DNA of 64,000 nt from Salvelinus alpinus (Eukaryota > Chordata > Actinopteri > Salmoniformes > Salmonidae): contig NC_092094.1 in NCBI RefSeq assembly GCF_045679555.1, positions 34,054,430 through 34,118,429 of the forward strand. The letters run 5' to 3'. Positions 2,611 to 56,826 of this stretch are shown here, piece after piece; within the stretch, counting starts at the first letter, position 1, and each line of letters opens with the position of its first letter. A program made the translations under genes and the position numbers. A model generated the notes under the pieces. That model saw nothing but the letters and a program-made list of their open reading frames with translations. It did no database searches and had not been told where the DNA came from.

Positions 2611-2838
2611 GGAGTGGCGCAGCAGTCTAAGGCACTGCATCTCAGTGCAAGAGGCGTCACTACAGTCCCTGGTTCGAATACAGGCTGTATCACATCCGGC
2701 CGTGATTGGGAGTCCCATAGGGCGGCGCACAAATGGCCCAGCATCGTCCGGGTTTGGCCAGGGTAGGCCGTCATTGTAAATAAGAATTTGTTCTTGACTG
2801 ACTTGCCTAGTTAAATAAAGGTTACATTTAAAAAATAA
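2611..2838 (+). mobile_element. tRNA-derived SINE with the salmonid LINE-type 3' tail
   Basis: A complete short element reading left to right. The head is tRNA-like, with an A-box-like GTGGCGCAGCAGTCTAAGG and a B-box GGTTCGAATAC. A body follows, then the tail running from the GGCCGTCATTGTAAATAAG motif through TTAAATAAAGG to an A-rich end. The tail is shared with the HpaI SINEs at 26.5 and 52.8 kb and with the LINE at 60.7 kb, but the head differs, so this is another SINE family (SlmI-like by memory, name uncertain). Confidence 0.85.
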
Positions 2839-26420: not shown

Positions 26421-28130
26421 CTTCTTTTTCTTCTTCGATGAGGTTTAACGGCGTTTGGCATCCACTAGATGTTGCATTACCGCTACGTACTATACTGGAG
26501 TACAACCCCCTTATCCTTTGCTTAAAACATTATTAACCTTTATTTAACTAGGCAAGTCAGTTAAGATCAAATTCTTATTTACATTGACGGCGAACAGTGG
26601 GTTAACTGCCTTGTTCAGGGGCAGAACGACAGATTTTTACCTTGTCAGCTCGAGGATTCAATCCAGCAACCTTTCGGTTACTGGCTCAACGCTCTAACCA
26701 CTAGACTACCTACCACCACAAATTTAAAAAATAAAATACCCTTCCACCTAACACTACACACGCAAACACATTTCTTTTTAAATAAAATTGAAAATAAAAT
26801 AATAAAACATGTAAATATTAAGAATACCACCCTACTCCACTATTTAAATCTATTTAGTCCTACCTCAGGCCAACAACTTGAAAGGATGGGACACCACCAC
26901 TTAACACACCCTGTAACTCTTCTGCTGTCAAGTATCGCACACCCAAATACCTCTCTGCAGCTGCCACCACATCCTCAATTTTCGGAGACTTACGTTCCAT
27001 CCCTGCAGTACAGTTGATAACCATTGTAATGAATGCTAAAAATCCAATTTTACTGAAACATATATCACTTGTTGGCCTATCCCTCTGTACTGGTACAGAT
27101 CTACTACTCACACCACTCCTCTCAGGATCCCTCCCTCTTGACCCATCTTCCTCTACTTTCTTCACTGCCTCAGTATATGTCTTCTGCACTACTCTAACCA
27201 TGGAAACCTCAACCTGCCTCTCACACAGGATATTTCTGATCCCCAGCCCCATGGGCACCCCTACAATTAACATATACCACTACTTTCCCCAATGTTAAAC
27301 ATTCCTTTGTCTCATGCCCTTCTGCACACCTAGGAACCTCCCTCCTACACACTGCTGCCACATGCCCATAAGCTTGACACCTGTAACAACATAATGTGTT
27401 TAGCACAAAAGCTTGTACAGGATAACTTATATATACTAACATAACTTTGTCGGGAAAAGACAACATAAAAACTCAAAAGAACAGACAATGACTTCTGTTT
27501 CACCACTCATGCCACCCTGTTTGCGTGGTACCAGACGACGAGCATCACAAACACTGGGAATTTTCCCCTTCAGTTGATCAACTTTGACATTTAATGCTAC
27601 CCCAGTAATCCCTCCTTTCAATAGCCCCCTTTTCTTGGGAGCAAAACAATTCACATTTCTTGCCCCCATTCGTTTAAAGTGGAAGCAGAAACAAACAATT
27701 ATCACAAGACCACTTCTGTTAACCTCACCGATTCCACAGCACCCAACTCTGTTTTCACCCACCATGAAACCACAAATGGATCCGCCAAAAGGCAAGGGTC
27801 CACTTTTCCCCAAAACTTCACTCCTACGGTCACGGACTCATCTTTATCCTGACCCTCGGTGATGTTCTCGGCGCCCGAGGCTTGCACCACACCTGCCTCT
27901 CCTTATGACAATACTGGACTTCTCCTGACATACATCTTGTTCTTGCCTTCAAGGGACGCCATTTAACCGGCTGTCACAATCTCAGTACAATCAGCACGAA
28001 CCCCTCAGGATGTAGCGCTCAACAGTGCTTCCCACTTATAAAACAGCTGCTTCGTCTTGATGTTCCTCTTTATCGAAAGCTACTGCAACGCTTTTCCATC
28101 TCAAACAAGTGCGCTCTTCCAACTACCATC
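26421..28130 (-). mobile_element. ORF1-only non-LTR retrotransposon remnant
   Basis: A recognisable ORF1 region runs on the minus strand, with a probable start at 27962 (MASLEGKNKMYVRRSP). Protein pieces in several frames follow: VKFWGKVDPCLLADPF, RGLLKGGITGVALNVKVDQL, then a zinc-knuckle zone (CYRCQAYGHVAAVC, fitting C-x2-C-x4-H-x4-C, and a partial second knuckle CAEGHETKEC) near 27390-27300. The C-terminal part is RPTSDICFSKIGFLAF and SGGVPSFQVVGLR, ending near 26860. The 3' UTR follows directly, with no reverse transcriptase ORF. The family looks like an I/Nimb-type LINE ORF1 (from memory). A SINE is inserted in the 3' UTR. The copy is not functional. Confidence 0.7.
26531..26718 (-). mobile_element. 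HpaI-type SINE inside the LINE 3' UTR
   Basis: A complete tRNA-derived SINE read on the minus strand: head with GGTAGTCTAGTGGTTAGAGC (A box) and a GGATTGAATCC B-box region, body with GACAAGGTAAAAATCTGTCG, and the shared tail ending TTAAATAAAGGTTAATAAT. It splits the 3' UTR of the ORF1-only LINE. Confidence 0.92.
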
Positions 28131-51337: not shown

Positions 51338-51487
51338 TTTAAGTCATTTAGCAGACGCTCTTATCCAGAGCGACTTACAAATTGGAAAGTTCATACATAT
51401 TCATCCTGGTCCCCCCGTGGGGAATGAACCCACAACCCTGGCGTTGCAAGCGCCATGCTCTACCAACTGAGCCACACGGGACCACGT
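51338..51487 (-). mobile_element. tRNA-derived SINE with conserved teleost core
   Basis: Read on the minus strand, the head GTCCCGTGTGGCTCAGTTGG and TGGGTTCATTCCC are A- and B-box sequences of a tRNA-Ala-like promoter. The core GTAAGTCGCTCTGGATAAGA and GCGTCTGCTAAATGAC is widespread in teleost SINEs (V-SINE-like, by memory). It has no LINE tail of the HpaI type. Confidence 0.85.
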
Positions 51488-52767: not shown

Positions 52768-52982
52768 GTGCGGCAGGTAGCCTAGTTGTTAGAGTGTTGG
52801 GCCAGTAACCAAAAGGTTGCTAGATTGAATCCCCGAGCTGACAAGGTAAAAAAAACTGTCGTTCTGACCCTGAACATGGCAGTTAACTCACTGTTCCTAG
52901 GCCGTCATTGTAAATAAGAATTTGTTCTTAACTGACTTGCTTAGTTAAATAAAGGTTACATTTAAAAATAATAAAATAAAAT
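52768..52982 (+). mobile_element. HpaI-type SINE
   Basis: Complete: head GGTAGCCTAGTTGTTAGAGT, CCAGTAACCAAAAGGTTGCT and GATTGAATCCCCGAGCTGAC, then the shared tail (GTCATTGTAAATAAGAATTT to TTAAATAAAGGTTACATTTA) and an A/T-rich end. Confidence 0.94.
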
Positions 52983-55219: not shown

Positions 55220-56826
55220 CCCTTTTTCAGGACCCTGTCTTTCAAAGATAATTCGTAAAAATCCAAATAACTTCACAGATCTTCATTGTAAAGGGTTTAA
55301 ACACTGTTTCCCATGCTTGTTCAATGAACCATAAACAATTAATGAACATGTGTAACAGTATAGCTTTAGTACGTCCCCTCGCCCCGACCGCGAACCAGGG
55401 ACCCTCTGCACACATCAACAACAGTCACCCACGAAGCGTCGTTACCCATCGCTCCACAAAAGCCGCGGCCCTTGCAGAGCAAGGGGCAACACTACTTCTA
55501 GGTTTCAGAGCAAGTGACGTAACTGATTGAAACGCTATTAGCGCGTACCCGCTAACTAGCTAGCCATTTCACATCCGTTACACTCACCCCCCTTTCAACC
55601 TCCTCCTTTTCCGCAGCAACCAGTGATCCGGGTCAACAGCATCAATGTAACAGTATAACTTTACGTCGTCCCCTCGCCCCGACACGGGCGCGAACCAGGG
55701 ACCCTCTGCACACATCAACAACTGACACCCACGAAGCGTCGTTACCCATCGCTCCACAAAAGCCGCGGCCCTTGCAGAGCAAGGGGCAACACTACTTCTA
55801 GGTTTCAGAGCAAGTGACGTAACTGATTGAAACGCTATTAGCGCGTACCCGCTAACTAGCTAGCCATTTCATATCCGTTACACATGCACCTGTGGAACGG
55901 TAGGCAATTAAGGTCACAGTTATGAAAACCTAGGACACTAAAGAGACCTTTCTACTGACTCTGAAGAACACCAAAAGAAAGATGCCCAGGGTCCCTGCTC
56001 ATCTGCGTGAACGTGTCTTAGGCATGCTGTAAGGAGGCATGAGGACTGCAGATGTGGCCAGGGCAATAAATTGCAATGTCCGTACTGTGAGACACCTAAG
56101 ATGGCGCTACAGGGTGACAGGACGGACAGCTGATTGTCCTCAAAGTGGCAGACCACATGTAACAACACCTGCACAGGATCGGTACATCCGAACATCACAC
56201 CTGTGGGGCAGGTACAGGATGGCAACAACAACTGCCCAAGTTACACAATGAACACACAATCCCTCTATCAGTGCTCAGACTGTCCGCAATAGGGTGAGAG
56301 AGGCTGGACTGAGGACTTGTAGGCCTGTTGTAAGGCAGGTCCTCACCAGACATCACCGGCAACAACGTCGCCTACGTGCACAAACCCACTGTCGCTGGAC
56401 CAGACAGGACTGGCACAAAGTGCTTTTCACTGAAGAGTCGCGGTTTTGTCTCACCAGAGGTGATGGTCGGATTCGCGTTTATCGTCGAAGAAATGAGCGT
56501 TACACCGAGGCCTGTACTCTGGAGCGGTATCGATTTGGAGGTGGAGGGTCCGTCATGGTCTGGGGCGGTGTGTCACAGCATCATCGGACTGAGCTTGTGG
56601 TCATTGCAGGCAATCTCAACACTGTGCACCCCCACTTTTCTCAACACCCCCCCTTTGTTCAGGAACACATTATTCCATTTCTGTTAGTCACATGTCTGTG
56701 GAACTTGTTCAGTTTATGTCTCAGTTGTTGAATCTTGTTATGTTCATACAAATATTTACACATGTTACGTTTGCTGAAAATAAACGCAGTTGACAGTGAG
56801 AGGACGTTTATTTTTTTGCTGAGTTT
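55220..56826 (+). mobile_element. Tc1-like transposon (fourth family), broken and interrupted
   Basis: The left terminus is lost; family sequence is recognisable from CCTTTTTCAGGACCCTGTCT. The start codon is at 55982 (MPRVPAHLRERVLGML), then MRTADVARAINCNVRTVRHL, GRTADCPQSGRPHVTTPAQD, VRQVLTRHHRQQRRLRAQTH, the first catalytic region VLFTEESRFCLTRGDGRIRV (Asp to Glu) and GGGGSVMVWGGVSQHHRTEL. After AGNLNTV a deletion joins directly to the 3' end, removing the last two catalytic residues. The right terminus (GACAGTGAGAGGACGTTTAT to GCTGAGTTT) is present. A 532-bp terminal-repeat unit is inserted at 55351-55882. Confidence 0.93.
55351..55882 (-). mobile_element. Miniature terminal-repeat (TRIM-like) element with tRNA-like repeats
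   Basis: A non-coding LTR-kin fossil. Two direct terminal repeats (55351-55582 and 55646-55882, 232 and 237 bp, roughly 3% different plus one small length difference) each begin TGTAAC and end GTTACA. They enclose 63 bp. On the minus strand a polypurine stretch (GAAAAGGAGGAGGTTGAAAG then GGGGGTGAG) abuts the second repeat, as in an LTR element. CATG is duplicated at the insertion site (55347-55350 and 55883-55886), inside a Tc1 element. Within each repeat, read on the minus strand, a GTGGAGCGATGGG A-box-like string is followed 60 nt later by GGTTCGCGCCC, close to a tRNA B box. It looks structurally whole for a non-autonomous unit and relatively young. Confidence 0.75.

Follow-up and report, generated by a model that had tools for sequence, protein, structure and literature searches.

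A miniature LTR retrotransposon lies within a Tc1-like transposon

The window, that is the whole 64-kb stretch of Salvelinus alpinus DNA analysed here, contains a complete miniature LTR retrotransposon (TRIM) of 532 bp at positions 55351-55882 of the minus strand. The element carries no genes and is inserted in a Tc1-like transposon; no second copy was found in a search of the 64-kb window. Its parts are as follows, with the basis of each assignment in parentheses.

55347-55350, no strand: target site duplication CATG, left copy (direct sequence)
55883-55886, no strand: target site duplication CATG, right copy (direct sequence)
55351-55582, minus: 3' LTR in the element sense, 232 bp, with a 5-bp deletion in the T-arm region (repeat alignment)
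55583-55645, minus: internal region, 63 bp, non-coding (between the LTRs)
55583-55612, minus: polypurine tract region adjoining the 3' LTR, 27 purines in 30 positions (purine count)
55626-55645, minus: primer-binding site, altered tRNA-His form (comparison with a tRNA panel and with relatives)
55646-55882, minus: 5' LTR in the element sense, 237 bp (repeat alignment)
55675-55763, minus: 89-nt tRNA-like stretch in the 5' LTR (the homologous stretch of the relative L107 fits a full-length tRNA model)
55686-55696, minus: B-box-like GGTTCGCGCCC of the 5' LTR (box search)
55746-55756, minus: A-box-like TGGAGCGATGG of the 5' LTR (TGGCGCAATGG at the equivalent place in L107)
55758-55761, minus: TTTT, the sole sense T4 of the 5' LTR, 1 nt upstream of the A box, a candidate Pol III terminator (inference)
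55762-55790, minus: G+C-rich hairpin immediately preceding the T4 (-15.9 kcal/mol, equalled by 8 of 200 shuffles)
55380-55463, minus: corresponding tRNA-like stretch in the 3' LTR, which has lost 5 bp through the deletion (outer limits calculated from the 5' LTR)
55446-55456, 55386-55396 and 55458-55461, minus: A-like box, B-like box and T4 of the 3' LTR, respectively (homologous to the 5' LTR parts)

Both LTRs run TGTAAC...GTTACA and their mutual identity is 95%, with four substitutions over 231 aligned positions and seven gap columns, five of which are a single 5-bp deletion in the repeat at 55351. When indels are counted, the differences are concentrated in the final third of the two LTRs (Fisher p 0.007; 0.098 for substitutions only). 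The purine richness of the tract is reached by 89 of the 127,942 30-mers on both strands of the window. On the minus strand the polypurine end directly precedes the repeat at 55351, which sets the sense of the element to that strand and makes 55646-55882 the 5' LTR. The initial annotation, which had described near-identical TG...CA direct repeats around 63 bp, a polypurine stretch before one of them and a CATG duplication around the unit, was accurate in each of these respects. The CpG observed/expected ratio is 1.08 for the element and 0.35 for the window.

The Tc1 flank at 56252-56728 matches HTH_Tnp_Tc3_2 with an E-value of 7.7e-7 and a score of 29.7 bits, just below the curated cut-off of 31.5 bits. 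It had been proposed that the Tc1 sequence reads continuously once the unit and one CATG are removed, and this pre-insertion junction, with one CATG, does occur in the host genome, 5,519 times at up to one mismatch (reversed-pattern control, 0). The Tc1-like transposon itself (55887-56790, plus strand) is decayed, its frame being open only in pieces.

Several other repeats are present in the window. That at 51338-51481 (minus strand) is a LINE-tailed SINE, in which a tRNA-Ala-like SINE head, recognised by ARAGORN and by the Rfam tRNA family, precedes a UnaL2 LINE 3' element (Rfam, 73.6 bits). The tRNA-like heads at 26642-26715 (minus strand) and 52771-52841 (plus strand) have similar downstream sequence and are presumably HpaI-type salmonid SINEs. 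A further tRNA-like head is found at 2631-2692 (plus strand).

The element belongs to a large family with full copies, solo LTRs and arrays

A search of the 2.37-Gb host genome revealed a large family with many copies. Using the whole unit as query, the best 40 of 1,874 candidates were scored and at least 46 full-length matches at 95-100% identity were found, the window copy included. The 40 loci analysed (39 fetched and the window) are the copies nearest to the query and not a random sample. Two LTRs are present in 34 of these loci and three, in a tandem array, in the other six, while the outer ends are TGTAAC/GTTACA in all 40. The internal regions are 62-63 bp long in 46/46 cases, and 32 of them contain the same 30 polypurine-tract bases as the window copy.

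Target duplications flank 37 of the 40 loci and are exactly 4 bp long in 36; that of L029 is 8 bp long and lies inside a CAGA repeat. An exact duplication is absent from the remaining three loci (L010, L022 and L033), two of which, L022 and L033, agree at three of four bases. L025 and L045 share flanks and were counted as one insertion. The duplications fit the pattern YNNR in 40 of 47 cases (36 from full copies without L045, and 11 from solo LTRs). A symmetric target preference is typical of integrases, and the YNNR preference is thus as expected of an integrase.

The two LTRs are identical in four of the 34 two-LTR loci (L011, L013, L016 and L023), which, together with the high CpG observed/expected ratio, points to young copies. 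The 5-bp T-arm deletion of the window copy was found at the same place in one other LTR of the 40 loci, the middle LTR of L019, and may be a shared variant or may have been spread by conversion. The 232-bp LTRs of L017 and L042 are intact at this site and are shortened elsewhere.

The three-LTR loci (L010, L017, L019, L022, L026 and L042) have the arrangement LTR-internal-LTR-internal-LTR with a spacing of approximately 300 bp, and four of the six have kept the outer 4-bp duplication. Such arrays may grow by recombination after insertion. Five family LTRs were also observed in a single 1.5-kb array at genome position C4:83027181-83028662.

With the LTR as query, the best 40 of 1,354 candidates were scored, giving at least 60 LTRs, of which at least 21 are single; 20 of these 21 were fetched. 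Eleven of the 20 are solo LTRs with a 4-bp duplication, four (L070, L072, L075 and L084) have an internal part on one side, in one (L069) the internal part that follows differs slightly, and four (L071, L073, L079 and L086) have neither a duplication nor an internal part. A 200-kb sample of the genome contained one LTR, which is solo, has a CATG duplication and is 88.7% identical, a single match being too few for an estimate of copy number. The TRIM reading of the initial annotation is thus supported by the family, in which copies with 62-63-bp interiors and solo LTRs are both found with 4-bp duplications, the full copies at unrelated sites.

Two forms of the primer-binding site

The start of the internal region in the window resembles the complement of the 3' end of tRNA-His, which was the best of 26 tRNAs compared. 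Relative to human tRNA-His the site has one insertion and three substitutions. Scores as high were obtained for 105 of 2000 shuffles and for 22 of 3000 pieces of the window. At L069/L088, an LTR 98.3% identical to that of the window is followed by a canonical form of the site and then by a comparable internal part of 62 bp; a second LTR was not found within the 2 kb fetched. Of its 18 positions, the canonical site shares 17 with human tRNA-His (14 for the next-best tRNA in the panel of 26); compared with this form, the window site carries an insertion and two substitutions.

The canonical junction between LTR and primer site occurs exactly at 321 places in the genome, and the altered junction, as in the window, at 1,373 (control 0 for each). 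Together these are 1,694 exact occurrences, to which each array contributes more than one junction. The presence of the canonical junction in 321 places and its 17/18 match mean that priming by tRNA-His is well supported for the family.

The LTRs contain a stretch derived from a tRNA

Both repeats had been reported to carry A-box-like and B-box-like strings in tRNA order. The two boxes were indeed found in the element sense in each LTR; evidence of a tRNA in the window copy by itself is moderate. For the 5' LTR, 18 of 1000 shuffles scored as high on the A and B pair, compared with 483 of 1000 for the 3' LTR, and a window-wide control, made at the low 3' LTR score only and hence saying little on the 5' LTR, was reached by 243 of 1070 pieces. 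In local alignments against a panel of 26 vertebrate tRNAs, the score of the 5' LTR was reached by 7 of 300 shuffles and that of the 3' LTR by 110 of 300, so that the window alone is not decisive on tRNA origin. A sequence-only tRNA profile, built from 21 vertebrate tRNAs, matched 55676-55710 (minus strand) with 11.4 bits (window-wide E=0.016), ranking fourth after three SINE-looking tRNA-like heads; with the profile in HMM form, 2/2000 and 8/2000 shuffles reached the scores of the two LTRs. A tRNA structure (covariance) model gave 9.1 bits for the window LTR, ranked sixth and was not significant (window-wide E=2.2). Rfam and ARAGORN found no tRNA in the window LTR, and the 5S family was absent from the Rfam matches at E<=10 in 55300-55930. 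Another A-box candidate, GGGTGTCAGTTG at 55719-55730, was considered first and dropped, having more than one form in the family and being equalled or bettered in conservation by 214 of 227 11-mers.

The tRNA origin of the LTR stretch is clear because some relatives with the canonical primer site match the full-length tRNA model. LTR pieces with this site were taken from 20 older relatives, at plus-strand places among the first 100 of the 321 junctions, and the covariance model matched 16 of the 20 at E<=1. The best matches, each over the full length of 89 nt, were those of L107 (35.0 bits, E=6.8e-9), L090 (25.9 bits), L103 (24.0 bits) and L102 (23.7 bits); the search with such a model that had been suggested in the initial annotation therefore did recognise LTRs of this family. 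Applied to the 39 nearest loci, the model gave 21 matches at E<=1, of which 18 are in LTRs by their coordinates, the best of these scoring 16.1 bits. The 89 nt of L107 align without gaps to 55675-55763 of the window (minus strand), and contain the A box TGGCGCAATGG and the B box GGTTCGAGCCC; the A box of the window, TGGAGCGATGG, has two base differences from that of L107.

Rfam (E<=1) and ARAGORN identified no tRNA in the LTR pieces of the 20 relatives. The 89-nt stretch folds no better than shuffled sequences, with z-scores of +0.8 for the window and -0.4 for L107, and its minimum-energy fold is not a cloverleaf; parts of the stretch gave z-scores of +0.5 and +1.1. Given the lack of an Rfam or ARAGORN tRNA, of a better-than-shuffled fold and of a cloverleaf, the tRNA-derived stretch is probably not a working tRNA.

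The conservation data are mixed as to constraint on a promoter. GGTTC, the start of the B box, is kept in all 86 LTRs of the 40 nearest loci and in 16 of 20 LTRs of the older set. TGG[AC]GCGATGG is kept in 84 of the 86 near LTRs, and 14 of the 20 older ones retain the window's A box. In the analysis of the older relatives L091 was left out, as it gave no LTR alignment, and L106 and L108 are partial. The boxes are inside the repeat family and are not its best-conserved part: in a comparison of 80 LTRs, the A box was matched or bettered by 45 of 227 11-mers and the B box by 81 of 227, and in neither set, near or older, are the boxes the best-conserved 11-mers.

A proposed replication model and its alternatives

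The element is best read, with a probability of roughly 0.92, as a Helenus-type non-autonomous TRIM whose LTRs include a tRNA-derived stretch, with a 63-bp interior containing little beyond the primer site and polypurine tract, and a 4-bp target duplication. The data show directly the paired LTRs and priming sites, the target duplications, the solo LTRs and tandem arrays, the identical-LTR copies, the tRNA origin and the Tc1 insertion. In the model proposed, Pol III would make an RNA from the tRNA-like promoter of the LTR, and an autonomous LTR retrotransposon (following Kojima's reasoning, probably a Gypsy element) would supply the proteins that reverse-transcribe and integrate the element, with tRNA-His as the likely primer of reverse transcription. 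Each LTR of the window copy has a single sense T4, 1 nt upstream of the A box, and among the 40 nearest loci a T4 is present in 78 of 86 LTRs and in none of 46 internal regions. Transcription might, speculatively, stop at the hairpin and T4 of the 3' LTR. An RNA starting slightly upstream of the T4 in the 5' LTR and ending at that in the 3' LTR would carry a short repeat at its two ends, which could serve strand transfer. The model is weak in one respect, as the Pol III RNA must pass the first T4 close to its own start.

The model could be extended to the altered primer site, in that the abundant, young subfamily with this site would prime with a mismatched tRNA-His or another RNA, and near-identical LTRs with the canonical site, such as that of L088, would represent copies in which the primer site was rewritten from the primer tRNA; this would apply jointly with a Pol III RNA that has both ends inside the LTR, its start lying just before the tRNA-like stretch of the 5' LTR and its end at the hairpin and T4 of the 3' LTR, and an R region of approximately 10-20 nt. 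We regard this combination as improbable and put it forward only as a conjecture.

Alternatively, the element would be a conventional Pol II-transcribed TRIM, in which the tRNA-derived stretch is left over from an old SINE insertion in the LTR and has no promoter role at present. Much of the LTR is as well conserved as the A and B boxes, the window A box is two bases off the tRNA-like A box of L107, GGTTC is kept in 16 of the 20 older LTRs, T4 is missing from eight of the 86 near LTRs and the tRNA-like stretch folds no better than shuffled sequences, all of which would suit a relic. Against this, neither AATAAA nor ATTAAA was found in the 86 LTRs and 46 internal regions, TATAA in the sense orientation is present in only two of the 86 LTRs and is absent from the window element, and GGTTC is invariant in the LTRs of the 40 loci. 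The length of 532 bp is also within the range that Kojima links to Pol III processivity (PMC10886601). Pol II transcription with a relic tRNA stretch is possible but on the unlikely side.

Two further explanations would dispense with LTR retrotransposition altogether, and both are very improbable. Duplication of a SINE-like repeat, tandem or segmental, would account for the three-LTR arrays with their spacing of approximately 300 bp (6/40 loci) and for the place with five LTRs, but is refuted by the 4-bp duplications that 37 of 40 loci carry at unrelated sites, including four of the six arrays, by solo LTRs with duplications, by the tRNA-His primer site and by the empty Tc1 site. The tRNA-derived stretch with its A and B boxes, and the presence of real SINEs nearby in the window, could likewise suggest a tRNA-derived SINE mobilised by a LINE and flanked by its own duplicate. 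Insertions of that kind have long, variable target duplications, whereas those of the present family are fixed at 4 bp, and together with the solo LTRs this refutes LINE mobilisation; the TG...CA ends, with a primer site and polypurine tract where expected, are also against it.

Relationship to Helenus and other small LTR elements

TRIMs with tRNA-derived LTRs were named Helenus by Kojima (2024; Biology 13:119, PMC10886601) and are, according to that text, known from several fish; the suggestion in the initial annotation that a fish element with tRNA-like LTRs would be unusual was therefore overtaken by this description. Helenus elements are described there as 311-1263 bp long, with 4-bp duplications in animals, a box B that contains GGTTC, both solo LTRs and tandem arrays, vertebrate primer sites that fit tRNA-His, Leu or Lys, and probable mobilisation by Gypsy in animals (PMC10886601). 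An example of their abundance is LTR-11_DR of zebrafish, with 5,575 LTRs (PMC10886601). Among the TRIMp3 elements, Pol III transcription has, per Kojima, been validated only for Cassandra and not yet for Helenus (PMC10886601).

The present family resembles Helenus, compared by description, in its tRNA-derived LTR stretch (a full-length model match in L107 and a partial one in the window LTR), its 4-bp duplications (exact in 36 of 40 loci), its tRNA-His site (321 junctions, with an altered form in the window copy itself), GGTTC, solo LTRs and arrays. It differs in that box A of the window, TGGAGCGATGG, has TGG and not TRGCY, L107 having TGGCGCAATGG, and in that the altered form is the commoner of the two primer-site forms counted. 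The tested features fit Helenus apart from the diverged box A, an assignment made by anatomy. The salmonid host is a further difference, as the fish in Kojima's Table 1 are coelacanth, sturgeon, paddlefish, Cypriniformes, a catfish and milkfish, with no salmonid (PMC10886601), and words beginning with salmo or oncorhynchus do not occur in the main text of that paper (PMC10886601). In the literature searched from 2023 on, Helenus and retrotransposon were found together, besides Kojima 2024, only in a meeting report. Strings from the LTR family, the Tc1 site and the SINEs were not found printed in the literature searched.

By the general definition of a TRIM, the window element has two LTRs, a 63-bp non-coding interior, a polypurine tract and a length below about 1 kb, with the canonical primer site present in its relatives. 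It shares with the plant TRIM Cassandra the form of a miniature LTR element, an internal Pol III promoter in each LTR (predicted in the present case) and tandem arrays; Pol III terminators are also stated for Cassandra LTRs (PMC7215508). The LTRs of Cassandra are, however, derived from 5S rRNA and its hosts are plants, while those of the present family are tRNA-derived and the host is an animal. The tRNA-derived SINEs of fish, several of which are in the window, are similarly short and non-coding with a tRNA-derived promoter stretch, but the window element has LTRs, a primer site, a polypurine tract and fixed 4-bp duplications. PbTRIM of ants, the bivalve TRIMs and the Echinococcus TRIM are also small non-autonomous LTR elements; tRNA-derived LTRs do not feature in the parts of their descriptions considered here. 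No relatives of the element were found in viral contigs, bacterial genome contigs, plasmids or phages.

The young copies and the abundant subfamily with a non-canonical primer site are new, and the salmonid host, absent from Kojima's table, is probably so. With 1,694 exact junctions of two forms and copies with identical LTRs, the family offers a practical system in which to test the replication of an LTR element from a Pol III transcript. As its LTRs are dispersed tRNA-like sequences, they matter for the annotation of tRNAs and SINEs in the host genome. The finding probably extends the range of Helenus, as published in 2024, to a group of fish missing from Kojima's list.
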